Below the pieces are notes generated by a model that saw nothing but the letters and a program-made list of their open reading frames with translations, ran no database searches and was not told the origin of the DNA. A stretch of DNA of 64,000 bases from Fragilariopsis cylindrus CCMP1102 (Eukaryota > Bacillariophyta > Bacillariophyceae > Bacillariales > Bacillariaceae): positions 1-64,000 of the forward strand of contig FMBT01000452.1 in the NCBI GenBank assembly GCA_900095095.1, written 5' to 3'. Of the stretch, positions 7,082-34,345 are shown piece after piece. The translations under genes were made by a program, and so were the position numbers. Position 1 is the first letter of the stretch. The number at the start of each line of letters is the position of its first letter.

Positions 7082-9521
7082 TCAACCCCCACCAGTACTT
7101 AAACGAATCGCATCCATAACACTTAGTCCGATCGCATAAGCTAAGTTAACAGGAACAGCATTACCAATTTGATCACGAATTTCATCATCGGTACCTTTAA
7201 ATTTGTATGTTTTTGGAAAACTTTGCAACTGTGATTGTTCTAGTCGTGTCAGTGGACGGTTCATATTCTTGTAATGGCGAACAGTCCGTGCTTTTAATAC
7301 TGTACGTGCTGGATTATCTTTTGTTAAGCGAATATCACTGTCTTGCAATTTAGCTGTTTTCAACGTATGTCCTTCTACTTCAACAGCAACACCACTATTC
7401 GGCAAATTGATACGAATAATACCCTCATATTCTAATGGATTGATATCCTCTAAGAAACCAAGTACATTACCAGCTGTTTTAATTGGATATAGATGACGAC
7501 GATTTCCATGTGTTGGCTTTGGTACATTTGGTAACTCCAGACCATTTTTAGCGGCAATAATAAAAATACGTTCTCGAAATTGCGGATCTCCATATTCGAC
7601 TGAATTCAGTGAAAATAATCGAACTTGATATCCCATAACGAGCAATCGTGCAATCATCCTTTGCAAGTAATGTCTATTTTTTATATCATTCATTCCCACA
7701 ACATTTTCAAAAGTAACGTACGGTGGTTGGAAATACTCAACTACGTCTATAAATTGATAAGTTTCTTCGTTGTTGGCATCATCGTTAGCACCACCAGTCC
7801 GATTCGCTCTAGAAGATCCTTGACATGGTGTTGATCCATGTAGTAATGTGATACTACCGATTCGAGGATATCGTGTTGAATATGGATTATGCCTGCAACC
7901 AATAAGAAAATCTTTGACCGTATATTGATGCACAATACTATCTGGAAAATTAGCATTTAGTGTCGAACAGGATGAAGTATCCGAATCGACACTATCTGTT
8001 TTTCCATGAAAGCCCGCCTCTTTTAATCCTAGACTCATCCCTGTTTAGAACAATTGAACGATTTTTAATTTTGTTTAATGTCAATAAGTGAAGTACATTG
8101 TTTTAATAATCTACTAAACACACACGCGTTCTTACACGGAAAAATACAAACACATGCAAAGAATACTTACCTCCACCCCCCGCATAAAGATTCAGGACGG
8201 TAGGCTTCCCATTATCAAGACTAGCAAGAAGAGCAGCATGTGACGGTGATTTATTTACATTGCTGTTATCCGTTGTAGGAACGGATTTATAACAACATAA
8301 TACTTTGGAAGGATTATATTTGGTGTCACCATGTTCTTTCTTGGTAGAAGTAGATGTTGGTTTTCTATTTTTCGTAAATGATTTTGTTCTTTCTTTTTCA
8401 TCAATATAGTAATCATATTCATAATCGATCGGTCCTTCTATTTTGGGATCTCTTCGTTCACCAAGTAAGTTTAATGTCGTCGATATATTATTGGTTGTAT
8501 TACCATTATCATCACCACTATATGATAGAGTTAAAATGCATTTTACGTATTTTTGACTACCAGCACAAACGTATGCTGCTTCTTCCTTTCCAATGTACGT
8601 ATCTTCAAGACGTTTATAGAATTCATTTTCAATCATTGCACAATTTGAACTAGTTTTAACACGAACAATTGTAACAAATGCATTATTCAATACATCATCA
8701 GGTTTATCAGGATCAGGGTTCCTGTAAAATACATCACCTGATTTAAAATGACGTCCACCATACTCCACAAAGGTATGAATTGTATCCGTCGTTGTTTCAA
8801 AGGCGTTCTCTCGGAGTTGTTGTGTCAAAGTTAATTGCTTAAGTTTCTTATCACCTTCTTCGATGCTGCTATTGCTACCTCTTGATTTGCGTTTCTTGCT
8901 TTCGTTGTCGCTGCTAATACTTTCCGCTTTGTTATTTGCATTTCCTTTAACATTTCCTCTTTTGTTTTCTTGCTTCGTGGTATCATTGATTCTGCGTTGT
9001 TGCTGTTTCGTATTTCTAGTAGTAGCATTGTTGCTATCACCAAATAGTGTCCTTGTCACACGGGTATCATCTAGTACCGAGTAGGAAGAATTTGTATGCT
9101 TTGTTGTTGTTGTTGACACGGAAGTAGTAGTCGTTGTATTTTTCGTTTGTTTTTTCGTTGTACTCTTTAATATTGAAGATAATAACTCACTGTCATGACA
9201 CCAACTTTCATCGCCGTATTCATCAAAGTCTTCAATATTGTTGCTATTTTTTGCCTTACCAGTTGATTCATTGGAAGGTGAGTTGAATACAGTATTGGTT
9301 GCAGTTATTACTGTGGCGTGGCTCTTTGCATACGGATTGACATATGTTTTCGTAGTACTTTGTTTGTTGCTGCATATTACGGCGTGATGTTCGCCATCGT
9401 TGCTCGTTAAACTTACTTGACGGCTTGGTAGTATGGACGGCGAATCTCTTCGAGTAGACAAAAAAGTGGAATTGGTATTATTGCCGATAGTACTACCAAT
9501 TGTATTATCTCGTTTGCTCAT
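7082..9521 (-). CDS. DNA (cytosine-5)-methyltransferase, two exons
   Basis: The model is exon 1 9521-8171 and exon 2 8040-7082, with a 130-bp GT-AG intron in phase 1 that splits motif I exactly: TVLNLYAGGGG joins GMSLGLKEAGF. The first ATG in frame is at 9521 (about 769 residues); a TTG-led extension to 9629 is open but has no ATG. C5-methyltransferase motifs are all visible: I (AGGGGMSLGL), IV with the catalytic Cys (GSTPCQGSSRANR), VI (FENVVG), VIII (QFRERIF), IX (LTRLEQSQLQSFP) and X (QIGNAVPVNLAYAIG). Ahead of the catalytic half, residues about 250-390 form a conserved domain (VEYGGRHFKSGDVFYRN onward) that looks like a BAH domain. The first 250 residues are low complexity and Lys/Asn rich, likely a nuclear targeting region. 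Domain order recalls chromomethylase or DNMT1-type enzymes, but I cannot assign a diatom DNMT class. Confidence 0.88.
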
Positions 9522-12621: not shown

Positions 12622-14430
12622 TATAATATACCAAGCCATTCTGTGTATTAAGCAGTGATCTGCCAGTTTATTTCTGCCCCTACCTGTAGGTGAAAAATCA
12701 ACAGTATGTTTTGCACCTTTCGGAAGGTAGTCACAGCTAGCACACATATCCTCCTTAATAAATCAGTGATCTACATTTGTTTCTTTTTGAACCTACTTTG
12801 CAGTCATGTCATGTTACCATCCAATCCATGCCTTATCACAGACAAAGCAGGAAGTTTTATATGGTTACCATATGGTGATGACTGTGATACACAGAACCTA
12901 TTCTTATTAGTTAAAGCACATACATGCAGTGGGAATATTTTCTTTCGTGTTACACTTCTTTACCTCTGAAAAACAAGTGAAGGGTTGTTGTGACAAGATT
13001 TAAAGGAACAATCCACACTAGTACCACTTTGGTACATTACATCCCTCAAACTGTCATGAATAATGGAGAAGAATTGGAAATAGTACATAATATCACCTGA
13101 CCCATCTGGTGTTGTCCTCTGCAACCCTTTTATATGAGATATGTTTTGTTGTTCATTCCACAACCATAAGGAGATGAAAGTTGTAGTAGGCACACACAGT
13201 ATACCCAACCCATCTAATGTTGTCCTCTGCAACCCTTTTGTACTGATATTTTGTTGTTCATTTCTGATCAAAAATCATGTACTGTTACAAGTGTTCCTAC
13301 CATAACAGCGGAATATATTTTACTCCACAATCACAAGGAGATGAAAGTTGTAGGAGGTACTCATAATGTTCTGATACACTTTGTGGATGCTTGTGTACCT
13401 GACCCGGCAGGCGTTATCATCTGCAACAACCCTCAACATTGCTTTTCAGCCAACATGCCATATTTCCATGCCAAAAAGTAGCATTTAGAAATAGGCTAGC
13501 ACAACATTTGAAAGAAGCAATTGGGCAATGGTTTGAACATCCAGATACCATCCATATATGCATATGATCAAAATACACCAACAATACTTGGAGCATTCAC
13601 CTCATTGGTTTTTGGTGGGGCGGGGAACAATAGAATAGACATAAATTTGCCCAAAATACACACATTGCAAAAATATTTGAGATGCTACCACACCCATTCC
13701 AGGTGTGCTGATCACAAATAAAATAGCTAAGGATCCATCTTAGTCATAGAAGGATTGGTTATTACCATTATTTAAGAAAACCAAACATATATTTGGGGTG
13801 TCATGGGTCAAAACCTAACGCTTTAAAGCACACTGAAATCCTCAAATAATATAAAACTGTGTACAATCAAGGCCTTGATGCACCATCAATATGGACTTAG
13901 TACACCAAAACAATTATATGGAGCTCACCAATATAACTATACCTACAAGGTCCGAGTAAAGCTTTGGTTTCTATGGAGATTATGAAGGGATAGGGCCGCA
14001 TTAACCACAAAATGGGCCGTTTAGGCCAAAAAACATGGTTTTCCACTTTTGTGTGCACCTAAGCTGAATCATCAACACAAAGCACCAAGAGCAAGCTCAT
14101 TTTGGTATACATGGTTCATCCCATCTATATATTATGGGATGATTCAACTATTTGAGTGTACTGTATGTCCACAAACACTGCAAATGGGCCAATTTTTGGG
14201 TTATTTGATGTGTGCTGTGTGTGAGCCTACATTGTGAGATACCAGTAGGCTAGCGAGACTAAATAATATAGTAGTTCTCCATCCAATAGTTCAACTGTAA
14301 ATTTTATGGTCTATTTTTCCAAAAAAATGACTTTTTAGGTGTATGTACTTGATGCTAAAGTTGTTATTTAACTACACTAACAAATACTAGTAAAATTTGG
14401 ACATGATTTAGCTCTTATATTGATAATTCA
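12622..14430. repeat. Degraded copy A of a large interspersed repeat family
   Basis: The body (about 13430-14250) matches two other copies in this window (34390-35330 and 60000-61085) in the same orientation, for example through CCATATATGCATATG and GGGAACAATAGAATAGACAT. Just upstream (about 13080-13430) are satellite-type monomers in the opposite orientation to those of the other copies (TCTGGTGTTGTCCTCTGCAA). The right end (14210-14430) is the reverse complement of the left end of copy C (58524-58752), which shows that the family has long terminal inverted repeats. No coding capacity was recognised. Confidence 0.65.
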
Positions 14431-14686
14431 TTTGAGGCTTATCAAAATACTAATTGTGCGCATTGCAAATTTCGTCGGAATTTTCGAATAGCCTCTATTT
14501 TTAAATTACCTCATTTTTGTCACCAAACAAGCTTCATATTTATTTTAATATCAATATCACACTTTTCCCTAACACTTTTCTATTCGTTGAGAAAAAATAA
14601 ACAGACTTTTCTTCATTTTACCTTTACAGTAATAGTTTTAATTCACGACGACTACGACAGATAATAAGACAAAGCCAAATAAGACG

Positions 14687-16618: not shown

Positions 16619-17638
16619 TTACGAATTACGACGAAGAATTTCAATATTTTCATTTGCATCATTATGTTTATTTAATCCACGGCCAAATACAACAGGTGTA
16701 TGACATTTGGAATGGATCCATAATTGTGCAATATGTTTCTGACCAGATAATAATGATTCTATTAATTCTGAATCTAATGAATTTTCTAATCCTGAATCTT
16801 CATTTCGATTTCGTCCAATCGGTGGTTCACCAGCATGTATCGTTCTATGATCGGCACGTGTATTATCAAATGAATGAACGTTACCGAATGCATTTGTATT
16901 AATATTTGTATCATTAGTGCTTTTGGTAGACTGTTCACCTGTAGTAATGGCTGGAAAGAAAAGTAATGCACGACCAATTTTTGGTGATACAGCTAAACGA
17001 CTGTTATTTGCATCATTACCTATCAGATCACGAAATAATGTCCGTCCTGACCCCTTTTGACATTCATTATCTAAATAAACTAAAACAGTAGCAATACGTT
17101 GACCACCTCTAGTTTGTTCTACCTGCTCTTGATGCTCGTCATTATCGTCATCTAATGCATCCTCATGCCAAGCAAAACCTTGTTTAGAACCAGAATATTG
17201 GACTAATTGTATTTCTTCTATTTGATTTAAATTAATGGAAGGTAGTAATTTTAATAGTTCATTTAATATAGGTGCTACTGCAGAACAACCATATCGTACA
17301 TACCATGTTGTTGATATTCTTTTATTATTTCTATTTCTACTATTACTACTATTACTACTATTACTACTATTACCGATTGTTGTTGTTGTACGACTTTCAA
17401 GACGTATAACTCTACCAGCATCGGATGGTAATTGTCGTTTTGTCAATTGTAATATATTTTGACATTCAATCTTTGTTAAAAAATTATCTATCACAAATAC
17501 TGGTGGATCCACATGTAACCATTGAACACTACTATTACTATTACCAGTAGTATTATTACTACCAGTAGTATTGTTACTGTCATAATTGAAATTTACATTA
17601 CATCGTCCATCTAATGCTGTTGGTTTCGATCCTAACAT
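16619..17638 (-). CDS. Prolyl-4-hydroxylase-like 2OG-Fe(II) oxygenase, catalytic part
   Basis: The frame encodes 339 residues from an ATG at 17638. The double-stranded beta-helix signatures of P4H enzymes are present: FVIDNFLTKIECQNILQL near the start, an HxD iron site (FAWHEDALDDD), a GGQRIATVLVYLDN strand, PKIGRALLFFP, and the distal His in RTIHAGEPP followed by QLWIH. Such enzymes hydroxylate prolyl (or related) residues in secreted proteins using 2-oxoglutarate, O2 and Fe(II). The N-terminus lacks a signal peptide, and the ATG overlaps the TA flank of an inserted TIR element. A candidate missing N-terminal exon lies beyond that element at 19561-19904 and is in frame with this part once the element and one TA are removed. 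The gene is therefore either split by the insertion or spliced around it; the present ATG may be a fortuitous start. Confidence 0.8.
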   Translation of the reverse strand: MLGSKPTALDGRCNVNFNYDSNNTTGSNNTTGNSNSSVQWLHVDPPVFVIDNFLTKIECQNILQLTKRQLPSDAGRVIRLESRTTTTIGNSSNSSNSSNSRNRNNKRISTTWYVRYGCSAVAPILNELLKLLPSINLNQIEEIQLVQYSGSKQGFAWHEDALDDDNDEHQEQVEQTRGGQRIATVLVYLDNECQKGSGRTLFRDLIGNDANNSRLAVSPKIGRALLFFPAITTGEQSTKSTNDTNINTNAFGNVHSFDNTRADHRTIHAGEPPIGRNRNEDSGLENSLDSELIESLLSGQKHIAQLWIHSKCHTPVVFGRGLNKHNDANENIEILRRNS

Positions 17639-17639
17639 A

Positions 17640-19558
17640 CTTCCTCCAGCGAGCGCAAAGTGCCGCGCGGGCTATCGCGTGGAAATTTAGCTAGTGTTAT
17701 TAACACGTTAAAACCTTAAAATATTAAGATATAGGGTTAAAGTAACCGCTTTTAACCCCAATAAGAGACATAAAACACAAAGATAATGATGGAACGATAC
17801 TCAGTACAACAAGATAAATCACAATAACTATCATTACGATTGAATTATCTATGCTATATTAATGTTAATAAGTACTACTGTATGTGCTTATTATCAATGA
17901 ATCGCTTCTTTATGTACTGGACTTGTTGCTTGTTGTGATTGCAAATAATACAGTAAGTACAGTATCGATCGGACCGGATCCAATGGAATGGATCCATTCG
18001 TTCGATCGGATCCGTTCGTTGATTGATACACCCATCCCTCCCTGTAATGTTTTAGATTATTATGTGTATTATTGTGTTTGTATCGGTCCCCGTAATATAG
18101 ATCGGATCCATTCATTGATTCAGCCTTTCCGTAATATAGATTCGATTCCCATTCTCCGTAATATAGATCGGATCCGTTTGTAGATTTCACCCATTCCTCC
18201 CATTGATAGATTAGATTAGATCATAGTGTATATTGTTATGTTTGTATTGTAGTTATACCAATCCAATTTCCAGTACCATGCCTGGAACTGTTAATCTTCC
18301 TCCAAGATCTGATCAAATTCATCATCAATACCACCTGTAAAATATTCATAATCAGGATGATTGACACTTCCATGTTAGACTCATAGTTCATATATATCTC
18401 CTGGGAGTAAGTATTGTGGATCATATACTTGTTCTGGTCGTAGTTCTCCATCACTTTTGTATTCTGCCATTACGATATTCTTTGGTCTATTTTTTTCGAC
18501 GACGGACTGTTGGTGGTGGCGATGTTACTACTAATCCTCTACCATATTCAATAGCACGACGACGACCACTTCGAGTAATATCACCACCACCATCACCACC
18601 TCCTAATGCATTAAATTATATGGTAACCACGTTCTTGAATCCTTGATTGCATCGTAGATATTCTTCGGTCGGTTTCTTTTTCTTTTTCGACGACGGACTG
18701 TTGTTATTGTTGGTGGTGGTGGTGTTACTACTGCTGTCGCTGCTCCTCCACCAAATTCAATACAACGACGACGACCACTTCGATCATTACCACCACCACC
18801 ACCACCACCTCCTCCTCCTAATAGATCAAATGATTGAGCATGTAGTATTTCCTCATTAATGAATTGAGAGGAATTGATAATACCAATTGAATTTTCATTA
18901 TATTTGACATCAACTTTTCTTTCTTCTGTATAAACTGCAGAAACGAATCATATCCCTCCCTTACTTGTAGTGGATGGATCAACTCTAACACATGCTCCCA
19001 TAGAGAAGATATCTCTACTCATAGGAGGAGGAGGCTTGGTGTTGGGACGACGAAACATCTTGTTGTTGTTGTTGTTTTAGTCTTGAAAGAAGCAACACCT
19101 ATTTATTTTTTTCTTGGTCAAAAAATGGAGTTAGAAGGTCCTGCTTCGTGTCATGTCTTGTGCTATTAATACCGAAGAGAGTGCACCAAATTCGTTTTGT
19201 GATTAGACCAATAGAAGATTTGATATGGTTGATTTTATAAAAAATTCGACCAATCTGCTTCACCAACAGTCCCAGTTTGAAAAGAATTGATATTTTGGCT
19301 TTAAAAATAGGACTTTGAAACTGACTAGGAGCGCAGCAGTAGTAGTTGAGATGTTTGTTCTATAGAGTATGGTTTTGTTTATATTCATTCATTGGAAGTT
19401 GACGAAAATTGAGCTACCATGGTCAAATCCATTAGGACGTAATTAAAAAATAATAATGAAATAATAAAGTTTACGATGGAAAAAGAAGAACGTGTTAATA
19501 ACACTAGCTAAATTTCCACGCGATAGCCCGCGCGGCACTTTGCGCTCGCTGGAGGAAG
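17640..19558. mobile_element. TIR element (1,919 bp, 70-bp perfect TIRs, TA flanks) inserted in the oxygenase gene
   Basis: The 70 bases at 17640-17709 (starting CTTCCTCCAGCGAGCGCAAA) are the exact reverse complement of 19489-19558. TA flanks both ends (17638-17639 and 19559-19560), as expected for Tc1/mariner-type insertion. The TIR is GC rich, unlike the interior. Perfect TIR identity suggests recent mobility. The interior has no recognisable transposase; instead it has a decayed gene-like segment on the minus strand and several GGATCCGTTCG-type repeats (17970-18190). It is thus non-autonomous. Confidence 0.85.
18430..19058 (-). pseudogene. Gene-like fragment carried inside the TIR element
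   Basis: From an ATG at 19058 the minus strand reads MFRRPNTKPPPPMSRDIFSM and continues with DVKYNENSIGIINSSQF, a Gly run and RSGRRRCIEFGGG, ending at a TAG at 18603-18605. A single in-frame TGA near 18945 interrupts it. A second, partial copy of the RSGRRR...PPPTVRRRKK block follows at about 18430-18580, so part of the segment is tandemly duplicated. I do not recognise the protein. It looks like coding sequence captured by the element, but it could also be an original passenger gene. Confidence 0.4.
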
Positions 19559-19560
19559 TA

Positions 19561-19904
19561 GCAGCATAGGATTGTGCTTTTATAGTCCTATCATTTGTAT
19601 TTTCTGGTAGTGGTAATAATGCGTCATCCCAATTACGTTGAAAGTCCTTTGTTCTTGTTACAGCTTCTCCCCAACGATCATCATTATCGTCGCCTGAAGA
19701 CTTCAATCCTGTAATATCAATGTATCGTTTTCGAAACTGATGATGGACAGCAGTTTTTACTGCTGTTGTCACTATAAATGCATTGACTGCTACGATGATA
19801 CTAGAACTGCTTGTACTGCTTTCGTCGTCTTCATGATTATAGCGCTGACGGAACAAATGCAACAGTAATGTAATTTTAATCGCCAGCACCCAGATCCTCT
19901 GCAT
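19561..19904 (-). CDS. Displaced N-terminal exon of the prolyl-4-hydroxylase-like gene
   Basis: The frame starts at the ATG at 19904 with a hydrophobic signal-like N-terminus (MQRIWVLAIKITLLLHLF) and a second hydrophobic segment (IIVAVNAFIVTTAV). It reaches the right end of the TIR element after ...IKAQSYAA. Counting one TA, it joins the downstream catalytic ORF in the same frame, giving a 454-residue protein with a secretory N-terminus. In the present sequence the frame instead runs 118 bases into the element and stops at 19443. This exon restores the secretory targeting that the catalytic ORF lacks, which supports the interpretation that both belonged to one gene. Confidence 0.65.
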
Positions 19905-20752
19905 TTTAGAATGATTGTTGTGTGGTTATCACTCCCATGTCAGCGTGGTACAGATCACAGCAATACAGTACACCATGACATAATAAAAGGTACGTAGTAG
20001 AGAGGATATATGATATTGAAGATATAATTTCTTGTAATCAACTCTTGATGCTGCATACAGGTAGAAGATTGTATATTACTGGCTGAGCATCCTCTCCTGG
20101 TGCATGCTGATTATACCCTTTGAATCAATCACACATCATACGTACTTCCGCAATACCCCTCTGGCCCTGTTAAAATAAGAATAAAAAAAGAATAGCATGC
20201 AACACGATTGCTTATGTAAAAAGTGACTGAATGATTGATTCATTCGATTCCTTCGATTCATTCGATTCGAATCATGAATCAATCAGTCAAAGTCTTAAGA
20301 GCAACTAACTACCGTATCGCGTTTAAGAATTTCCATAATCTACTACCGTATCGCGTTTAAGAATTTCCATAATCTACTACCGTATCGCGTTTAAGAACTT
20401 CCGTAAAGCAACGTTACTTACTTTGTAAACTAATCAGAATTTCTTTCTTCGCACACATACATGATGACGATGACAGCGACAATAAAATCTGAATTATATT
20501 GAATCGAATCGAAGATCGTACTAATAAATAGGCTATCTACCGTAGTTATTGAATCAGGTAATAAATCTTCGGCGGCACAGCGGGTAGTGTAGTGTTTATT
20601 TGTGATTGTATTGTGCTTCGTCGATCGATTCGAAGGAAAGGAAGGAAGGAATAATAAACAATACAAAACATAAGTCCAAAATATAAACAACAAAGCATTG
20701 CTTTTTATTTTCTCACCAAAAAAAAAGACGAAATAGTATTACCAAAACTACG
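19905..20752. other. Divergent intergenic region with a short triplicate repeat
   Basis: The gap separates the oxygenase gene from the oppositely transcribed multicopper oxidase. Three tandem copies of a 35-bp unit containing CTACCGTATCGCGTTTAAGA lie at about 20311-20402, and a palindromic ATTCGATTCGAATC cluster lies at 20235-20285. No coding frame is supported. Confidence 0.5.
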
Positions 20753-23233
20753 ATGATGATGGAGATGATGATGTTTTCTTTCTTACGTTCATCTCGTCGT
20801 CCTACTCAATTGTTCGTGCTGGTGGCTTTAGCATTATTTGCTCTCGGTTCAACTTCATCCGTTACAGCAGCAGGTGCAAAACCAAATCAACGATCATCAC
20901 GATCAGCAAACACAAATAAAGAGCAATCACAATCACCGCCACCACCTACTGATAGTACTGATTTTATTGATTGTAATGATCCATGTAATGATGGTGATGT
21001 CAATTATGAATTAATTGCTTCGGTCCAAACCATCAAAATGAATTTTGGAAATTATACGTATCGTGGTCGAACATTCGCACGACCTAATGAAAAAACTGGA
21101 CAGATACCGGAAGGCGACTCCAATCATATGGGACCCACCATGTATGTGAAACCAGGACAAAGTTTGTACATCAAATTTCGAAATGAGCTTTACAAAGAAC
21201 AAACAAAAAATATTAGTCCACTTCCAGTAGAAATTTATGATTATTGGTCACGTCTGGTGGTACCTGGTGAAAAGATTAAGTACCAATATTATAAAAAACC
21301 GGTCTCATCACCTGAATTAATGGAAGTCGATGAAAATAATCTACCAAAATCCTTTGATGCCACGAATTTACATTTACATGGCTTAGATATTGCTGTCCAT
21401 ATGTTTGATCCAGTTGGGACACATAATCCAGAAGCATCTCATATTGCAATTGATCCAGGACAATGTTATTGTTACAAATTTCAAATACCCAATGATCATC
21501 CCGATGGTATGTATTGGTATCATCCACATTTACATGGATCTAGTGCGATACAATTATGGAGTGGAATGATGGGATTATTATATATCCAAGGTACATTCGA
21601 ACAAGAATTAAAGACAAAATATAATATACTCGATAGTCGTGAATTTGTAATCTGGGATCCAATATTTCAAGATATCACAAATAAAACAACAACTGATGAT
21701 AATGATCGACAACAACAACATAATATTGAAGTCGATGAATTTTTACTAGGACAAACAACATTATCGAAAATACATCCATTTTTAGTCAATGGTGAAATCA
21801 CCCCACTATTTGATAATGTGATGGTCAATCAAATATTACATTTACGTGTATTATGTGCTACAATTGAAAATGAAAATACTTTTATTATTTATAAATATGT
21901 CGAAGGTAAAGATTATAGTACAGCAAATTGGAAAACAGAATCGATACCATTTTATCAAATAGCCTCGGATGGTGTGACCTACAGTGGCAATCCCATCCAA
22001 CGGAATATCATTGTAGTAGCAGGTGGTCAACGAGAAGAATTATTATTACAATTTAATGAAACAGGGAAATATGTAATAAGTCAACAGGGTATCCAAGGGA
22101 TGCAATTTTTTGATATGTATGGACATCCACATGATCAATTACTGGCAATCATTAATGTTGTGGATGATGATCAAAACGATAATGATGCTAATGATGTAGA
22201 AGCAGAAGAAGCAGAAGCAGAAGATGCAGTATCATCCTCCTCCTCCCAAGAACAACAACAACCATCAAATATTGATATTCCAAATATGATATTTACACCA
22301 GGATATACCAAAGAGGAAACCATCCACTCTCATCAAATTGTGAAAACAGAAGTCATTGTTTTTTCGATGGGTGCCAATCGGAATCAAGTACCGTTTCCAC
22401 AATATTATGTCAATGGACATAGTTATAGTCCCAACGAAATTAATTTTTATGCAAATCCTGGTGATGCTATTGAATATATCTTAATTAATGCCAATCATAA
22501 TGTACATCCTGTAAGTTACAATTTTGTTACCTTATATATATTGTTACTTACTGTACTCGATTGTTTCGGCTGTTTTGAATGGTCTGACCGGACGTTGTTT
22601 CCGTCATTTTCGTCGTCATCGCGCGTCGTCGCATGCGTACGGTACAGGACCGTTCCTGAATGCAAAATAGATCTATACAACTAACGTATGCGTCGCCTCC
22701 CCCCCCCCCCCCCCCCCCCCCCCCTTCCTCTATCTTCTCTCGTTTACAATTACTAATACAATACAATATCATCATGGAAACAAAAATAAAACAACTTGCA
22801 GTTTCATATACATGTCAATCGTTTTCAAGTAAAAGAAATGGGATCTGAATTATCTACTGATAAGTATCCTGTACTGGCAGAAGTAATGAATTTTACAGAA
22901 GATGTCTGGCGTGATACAGTGGTTATACCACCCAATGGTCGGACACGGATATGGGTACAATATAAAAATTATACTGGAAAGACGGTGTTTCATTGTCATT
23001 TCTTAGCACATGAAGATACTGGTATGATGGCAACATTATTTATTGGTGCACCGGATATTATATTTCATTGGCACGAGCATATACCATTATTAATTGGTGG
23101 TGGTATTGGTATTATGGTAGGTCTAACTATACTATTGCTATACTATATTATATGTATTAATAAAAGACGACAACGATCATCAGATTACTCTGTGGTTAAA
23201 ATGAATGAATTAAAATCAAAGACATATGATTAG
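20753..23233 (+). CDS. Membrane-anchored multicopper oxidase, two exons
   Basis: The model joins 20753-22510 and 22802-23233 (phase 0, 291-bp intron) and gives 729 residues. A signal peptide (FVLVALALFALGSTSSVTAA) starts the protein. All four copper-binding motifs are present: NLHLHGLDI, YWYHPHLHGSS, HPFHIHVNRFQV (the intron splits it after HP) and VFHCHFLAHEDTGMM, whose HCH-x3-H-x4-M supplies the trinuclear and type 1 sites with an axial Met. A C-terminal helix (IPLLIGGGIGIMVGLTILLL) and basic tail anchor it with the catalytic part outside. In algae, such oxidases are candidates for ferroxidase-dependent iron uptake, or for laccase or Cu-oxidase roles; which applies here is inference. An acidic Glu/Asp-rich insertion lies around residues 475-510. 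The intron carries a C26 run (22699-22724). Confidence 0.9.
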
Positions 23234-33203: not shown

Positions 33204-34345
33204 CGGGTGCACTAACATCCACATAGTATACTAGAACATTGTGGTTGTTGAATAAACTGCATTCCGCTTTTAAGGCAGGCACAAACAAATAACAAGACTT
33301 TTGATCAAAATGAACCACAAAATATCTCATTTGAAAGAGTTGCAACAGACAACACCAGCAGGATTAGGTGCATAAGCATTCACATAGTGTATCAAAACAT
33401 TGTGTTTGCCTTCTACAACTTTTCTGTTCATGTGGTTGAGGAATAAAATTTGTTTTACTATTGTTGCATGCACAAAAATAAAGAGGTTTTTGATCAGAAA
33501 TGAACAACAAAATATCTTATTTGAAAGGGTTCCATAGGACAACACTAGATGGGTGAGGGGTGCAAGCATTCACATAGTGTATCAAAACATTGTGTTTGCC
33601 TTCTACAACTTTTCTGTTCCTGTGGTTGAGGAATAAAATTTGTTTTACTATTGTTGCATGCACAAAAATAAAGAGGTTTTTGATCAGAAATGAACAACAA
33701 AATATCTTATTTGAAAGGGTTCCATAGGACAACACCAGATGGGTGCGGGGTGCAAGCATTCACATAGTGTATCAAAACATTGTGTTTGCCTTCTACAACT
33801 TTTCTGTTCATGTGGTTGAGGAATGAAATTTGTTTTACTGTTGTTGCACGCAGAAAAATTAAAAGCTTTTTAATCAGAAATGAACAACAAAATATCTCAT
33901 TTGAAAGAGTTGCATAGGACATTACCTTCTTTGTCAGGTGCATAAGCATTCACATAGTGCACTAGAACATTATGTACTAGAACATTGTTTGTGCCTCCTA
34001 CAACTTTTCTGTCCATGTGGCTACTGAATAAATTCAGTTTTGCTTTTGTGACAGGCACAAAAAGAACAACATGATGTTTGATCAGAAATATTGAACAGCA
34101 GAATATCTCAGTTGAAAGGGTTACAGAGGACAACACCAAATGGGTTGGGTGCACTAACATCCAAATAGTGTATTAGAACATTGTGTGTGCCTCCTACTAC
34201 TTTTCTGTTCATGTGGTTGTGGAATTAAATTCATTACTCTGTTATGGTAAGCACATAACCAGAACATGATTTTGGATCAGAAATAATGAACAACAAAATA
34301 TCTCATTTGAAATGGTTACAGAGGACAACACCAGATGGGCTGGGT
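33204..34345. repeat. 190-bp satellite-like tandem array of repeat copy B
   Basis: Five to six monomers of about 190 bp share AAAATATCTCATTTGAAAGR, ACAACACCAGATGGG and ACTTTTCTGTTCATGTGG. Adjacent middle monomers (33520-33890) are nearly identical, while outer ones have diverged. The minus-strand ORFs inside are repeats of one monomer and not genes. The monomer is related to, but shifted in sequence from, the 188-bp monomer in copy C. Confidence 0.85.

Follow-up and report, generated by a model that had tools for sequence, protein, structure and literature searches.

An oxygenase gene of Fragilariopsis cylindrus with and without a TA-flanked inverted-repeat element

The terminal inverted repeats (TIRs) of Stowaway transposons have been described by a 10-bp consensus, CTCCCTCCRT, and the putative footprints left by their excision, like those left by Osmar5 in yeast, are 1–4-bp TIR fragments beside TAs (PMC1925063). 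In carrot, Stowaway insertions were found to be highly polymorphic, with virtually none in exons (PMC6881990). PlantMar elements (DD39D), as described in PMC7325037, are 2–6 kb long, have short TIRs and a transposase in which 39 residues separate the second aspartate (D) from the third, and are reported there only from plants and stramenopiles. Transposons within genes can also become introns; in the account of introners given in PMC9860276, TIR evidence is listed for 72 of 177 families tested, many non-autonomous transposons are described as having given rise to introners, family median lengths range from 30 to 654 nt, and some introners use GC or GA donors or add or drop neighbouring codons. 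The present analysis concerns a 64,000-nt stretch of the diatom Fragilariopsis cylindrus CCMP1102 (the window: positions 1–64,000 of contig FMBT01000452.1, assembly GCA_900095095.1), in which a 1,919-bp TIR element, probably Stowaway/mariner-like, lies within a gene for a 2-oxoglutarate-Fe(II) (2OG-Fe(II)), prolyl-4-hydroxylase-like oxygenase. A second copy of this gene, on a contig of the same assembly referred to as C709, is uninterrupted.

The element occupies positions 17640..19558. Its 70-bp TIRs (left arm 17640..17709, + strand; right arm 19489..19558, - strand) are identical at 70 of 70 positions, and a perfect inverted repeat of this length is far beyond chance. A TA stands at each side (17638..17639 and 19559..19560); with these counted in, the inverted repeat extends over 72 nt (17638-17709 and 19489-19560) and is 100% complementary. 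The original prediction had given the length of the element, its perfect TIRs and its TA flanks exactly. The genome was searched at protein level with the 339-amino-acid (aa) open reading frame (ORF) that encodes the catalytic part of the oxygenase, and 18 of 18 candidates were scored. Six places came up: the window itself, the copy on C709 (89% identical along the full 339 aa) and four distant homologues (24–36%). The C709 copy is a single uninterrupted frame of 464 aa with the same N-terminus (MQRIW...) and C-terminus as the window gene, and the DNA around the two genes is 86–91% identical. In the alignment, window 19559 and 17639 fall on neighbouring bases of C709, where there is one TA, no extra base and no footprint. 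Because published footprints retain TIR fragments, this clean, lone TA reads as a site that was never occupied, and no target duplication is to be expected from a misassembly. The empty site on C709 is the decisive evidence for insertion, and it can be used as such since it holds for an allele and a paralogue alike. The element is, with high confidence, a non-autonomous, TA-targeting transposon that inserted in the oxygenase coding sequence on one homologue, with C709 keeping the uninterrupted gene.

The 5' part of the interrupted gene (exon 1, 19561..19904, - strand, placed by alignment to the 464-aa frame of C709) is 344 nt long, or 114 complete codons plus 2 nt. Judged by eye, it begins with a signal-peptide-like presequence, and the V-N-A-F in this N-terminus is presumably similar to the motif at which the plastid-targeting presequences of diatoms are cleaved. 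The 3' part (16619..17638, - strand) is the 339-aa ORF with the 2OG-Fe(II) oxygenase domain. Its residues 144-230 match PF13640 at 30.1 bits against a curated cut-off of 27, which bears out the predicted prolyl-4-hydroxylase-like catalytic frame; the C709 protein matches at 27.9 bits. No solved structure close to the intact oxygenase was found at E (expectation value) 0.001. When exon 1, one TA and exon 2 (1,019 nt, 17637-16619) are joined, the result is 1,365 nt, or 455 codons including the stop, with zero internal stops, so the rejoining of the frame through one TA that had been predicted holds. The joined 454-aa protein aligns in register with the 464-aa C709 protein from end to end; it is 10 residues shorter, with 7 gaps that derive from a protein alignment and whose whole-codon size is not independent evidence. 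Both frames are open end to end, and no frameshift has therefore accumulated. This in-frame rejoining is by itself no evidence for splicing, because the same outcome follows from every insertion that duplicates its target site.

The ATG that opens the catalytic ORF (17638-17636) had been thought to be formed across the insertion junction. Its A does belong to the duplicated TA, yet the insertion did not make this ATG: C709, with its empty site, carries this in-frame Met too, in matching context (KSYAAMLGS against QSYAAMLGS), and the codon is the original internal Met, preserved through TA duplication. A homologue beginning at the present ATG and lacking the exon at 19.6-19.9 kb was named in advance as grounds for doubting an interrupted gene; the C709 homologue has that exon and starts earlier. 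A 339-aa ORF that carries PF13640 and begins at a native Met would suit a gene split in two with both halves expressed, where the 3' part is made as an oxygenase that lacks the presequence and resides elsewhere in the cell. An open ORF is nevertheless expected after any recent insertion, and a split gene of this kind is very unlikely. The exon 1 ORF now continues for 39 codons inside the element, to a stop at 19443. The insertion allele is likely null or truncated, the intact gene presumably being supplied by C709.

Further copies of the TIR, whose absence from the genome had also been set down as a ground for doubt, are plentiful. A 26-base pattern (TA plus the TIR start), with at most 3 mismatches allowed, had 90 genome matches compared with 0 in the reversed control, and a shorter TIR pattern had 324 compared with 1. 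A DNA search with the element returned at least 94 matching genome stretches, a lower bound that counts stretches rather than copies and includes the element's own self-matches. Nineteen distinct paired elements were recognised, the window's included, among best-scoring or chosen rather than random loci and with loci of one recognised end or none left out. The target-site duplication of TA that is a trait of Tc1/mariner elements is present in 18 of these 19, the other being a short doubtful pair (on C31). As TA is itself part of the first pattern, the TIR alone was also used to find ends at 19 loci (L016-L034). At 6 of these loci a total of ten ends reached the score, and TA precedes all ten, where TA makes up 9.3% of window dinucleotides. 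The remaining 13 loci had no passing end; among them, L021 and L022 have TA at both ends (alignment offsets). Family copies measure 0.17-0.39 kb, 1.5-1.9 kb or 3.7-3.9 kb. The window element shows the marks of a cut-and-paste TIR transposon, namely TIRs, a TA duplicated relative to the empty site and the same ends in other copies.

It had also been suggested that the transposon might be spliced as an intron. An element acting in this way, as an introner, would be taken from the oxygenase mRNA by the spliceosome, and the insertion allele would make full protein. Such a role would agree with the restoration of the frame when the element is removed with one TA and with two coding parts that are free of stops and frameshifts. 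Exact excision, however, allows only three placements, whose ends are TA..AG, AC..GT and CT..TA, and none of the exact boundaries checked is GT-AG, GC-AG, GA-AG or AT-AC. Inexact removal could be considered as well, as many non-autonomous transposons are described as having become introners, some of them altering neighbouring codons (PMC9860276). Forty of 912 GT/AG choices (24 x 38) leave the frame open and in register, and the nearest of these brings in 6 extra nt. As a control, limited to GT donors, the element was shuffled 60 times by mononucleotide; the means were 23 in-frame choices and 37 nt for the nearest; 5 of the 60 had as many choices and 17 of the 60 had one as close. Choice count and closeness lean mildly to splicing, yet both lie inside the shuffle range. 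The scanned region contains no strong donor (GTAAG, GTGAG, GTATG or GTACG), compared with a shuffle mean of 1.9 (standard deviation 1.5), a weak point that leans mildly against splicing.

The comparison with known introners has two sides. Like them, the window element is a non-autonomous TIR element within a gene, and its exact removal restores the frame. Unlike them, it has no canonical exact boundary, and its 1,919 nt exceed any published family median (30-654 nt; PMC9860276). Across the empty sites of the 18 other paired copies examined, the longest frame is at most 135 codons, compared with 461 at the oxygenase, and 0 of the 18 interrupt a long frame. Given the footprint-free empty homologue, a young insertion suffices, and a role as an intron, which finds no support in the boundaries, the GT/AG choices or the other copies, is extremely improbable.

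A related possibility is that the mRNA is mended independently of splice sites. So-called SOS splicing of transposon-bearing mRNAs has reportedly been seen in C. elegans; a literature search for it within one library gave nothing, and we know of no evidence for such a route in diatoms. In this case a hairpin of the paired 70-nt TIRs, which are perfect and could pair in the transcript, would lead to removal of the whole 1.9-kb element, and full-length oxygenase would be made from two coding parts that are both open. Recency alone accounts for the intact coding parts, and mending through a hairpin is scarcely to be expected. A recent transposon insertion remains the preferred explanation.

The element has the form of an internally deleted copy. 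When it is compared with a longer family member, L017, both ends align, the longest pieces being positions 1-199 and 1196-1851, and the core is lacking. Between the arms there is a broken remnant of an N-terminal transposase region (18624..19058, - strand) that is 55% identical to the L017 ORF over its residues 1-138 and has an internal stop; the transposase catalytic core was not matched in this remnant. A new protein-coding role for the element was considered and rejected, as the broken remnant was all that was recognised, and no Rfam match in the region of 15-22 kb reached its gathering score. Since the core is lacking and the remnant carries a stop, the element is non-autonomous and would have been moved in trans.

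L017 (C464:185522-189445; 3,924 bp) encodes a transposase-like protein across two overlapping frames, with a candidate GT-AG spliceosomal intron between the two frames and between the first and second catalytic-motif regions. Its core motifs are Q-S-D-E-K-W, W-D-N-A-T-P-H and N-S-P-x-x-N-x-x-D, with 38 residues from the second to the third D. The residues that we take to be catalytic were picked by their resemblance to known transposases. The core motifs of a further copy, L026, were read by eye, and in other long copies (L016 and L025) the frames of the transposase core are shifted or broken.

These features point to a probable Stowaway/mariner-like TIR transposon. As in Stowaway and PlantMar, the family duplicates a TA target and has short copies beside longer, transposase-coding ones. 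The TIR start of the window element, CTTCCTCCAG, agrees with the Stowaway consensus at 8 of 10 positions, and that of relatives L019-L022, CTTCCTCCGT, at 9 of 10. The long copies of 3.7-3.9 kb fall inside the 2-6 kb of PlantMar. Unlike PlantMar, L017 has a spacing of 38 rather than 39 residues, and the window TIRs are 70 bp rather than short. The core aligns weakly, in the D-N-A..H and S-P-x-x-N regions, with the DDE_3 (IS630/Tc1-type) transposase encoded on contig C714, but a genome search for DDE_3 found that protein and one on C598 only, not the window element's family. A literature search for mariner-like elements in diatoms gave nothing on the topic, by which their existence is not disproved. 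The element is a member of an already known kind of transposon, and its behaviour is that of an ordinary transposon.

Several lines of evidence suggest that the insertion is young. No difference separates the two TIR arms over their 70 positions, which puts the 95% upper limit of their divergence at 4.2%. Between the window and C709 the oxygenase gene has a nonsynonymous divergence (dN) of 0.054 and a synonymous divergence (dS) of 0.127 over 1,362 aligned nt, and the flank adjoining the element is about 90% identical. For exon 1 alone, dN is 0.040 and dS is 0.049 over 342 nt, with too few changes to speak on selection. Because the arms are identical, the gene has a dS of 0.127 and the frames are still open, the insertion probably took place after the two homologous segments had separated. 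That a coding sequence has been hit on one homologue also fits a young event, in that carrot Stowaway insertions are highly polymorphic and almost wholly missing from exons. The recent insertion put forward in the original prediction is supported by C709, which lacks the element and has a single TA. Its suggestion of polymorphism is borne out as far as a homologous contig without the element goes, the extent being that of one assembly.

C709 (33.7 kb) matches the window over about 4.3-62 kb in three blocks, one direct (4.3-14.5 kb) and two inverted (32.9-13.5 kb and 62.3-54.7 kb). The main pieces are 74-93% identical, and window 34.4-54.7 kb is absent from C709. The oxygenase region is inverted on C709, and sequence from near window 13450-14462 recurs at either end of the inverted block (L065, L066, L015 and L067; window 4320-62270), as would be seen after an inversion with staggered breaks. 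Silicon transporters, a family in keeping with a diatom although other silicifying algae also have it, have 27 matching stretches in the genome (best 757 bits; 1 of 14 control genomes matched, below the cut-off). Some of these stretches form near-identical pairs whose members lie on separate contigs, C581/C268 and C331/C90 among them. Such pairs fit an assembly that retains part of a second haplotype. C709 would then be the other homologue, rearranged, rather than a segmental duplicate.

A number of observations weigh against this account as a whole. The transposase core, in the form of two cores, had no Pfam family match at E up to 10. A sequence search of the PDB with the core returned no transposase, only kinases, actin-related proteins and other unrelated chains, and a profile search of the PDB gave no match. 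Alignment of the core with the DDE_3 protein of the same genome by hhalign gave a P of 0.065 and a probability of 0.9%, from a query profile of only 3 sequences. Being unrecognised by Pfam and the PDB, with an N-terminal region in L017 that also has no Pfam match, the transposase differs from those of Stowaway and PlantMar. As the Pfam, PDB and profile searches gave no confirmation, the superfamily label rests on the TIR start, the TA target and the motifs. With regard to age, one copy (on C603) is 99% identical in its TIR arms and 76-80% in its interior. Arms that are more alike between copies than interiors make TIR identity an imperfect clock, and the arms may be constrained or converted. 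With regard to the pairing of the two segments, C709 is rearranged relative to the window, and a search for a second copy of window 35.6-54.6 kb, with only 39 of 396 candidates scored, yielded nothing except one 35-bp match. This part, unlike the flanking parts of the window, could be hemizygous, collapsed or moved.

The sequence of events that would account for the locus is as follows. An internally deleted, non-autonomous Stowaway/mariner-like element would have been moved by cut-and-paste, in trans, by a transposase of the type encoded by the 3.7-3.9-kb copies. It would have entered the coding sequence of the oxygenase gene, duplicating the TA, after the two homologous segments had diverged. 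The window contig and C709 would be alleles and not paralogues. Exon 1 would now be read into the element and stop there, the cell presumably relying on the intact copy on C709.

Other features of the window lie apart from the element. An ORF at 20753-22684 (+ strand), which adjoins the oxygenase gene on the opposite strand, is multicopper oxidase-like (PF07732; NCBIfam matches under cut-offs). At 20308-20402 a roughly 34-bp unit (ACTACCGTATCGCGTTTAAGAA...), recognised by eye, is present in three near-perfect tandem copies. An ORF at 7082-8038 (- strand) matches a bacterial-type cytosine-5 DNA methylase (PF00145, E 9e-40; TIGR00675 above cut-off). Repeated sequence, apparently tandem and with many copies elsewhere in the genome, is found at about 33240-33975 and at 58.8-60.1 kb.

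The site is suited to asking whether transposons are taken out of mRNA in diatoms, but the present results give no hint of it. Its main interest lies in a natural pair, two homologous segments in a single assembly of which one carries the gene with a transposon and the other the gene alone, which gives an unusually clean view of before and after. The pair is direct evidence for TA-targeted insertion by the window element's family, and it suggests that this family, with its many relatives resembling miniature inverted-repeat transposable elements (MITEs), was active after the two segments diverged.

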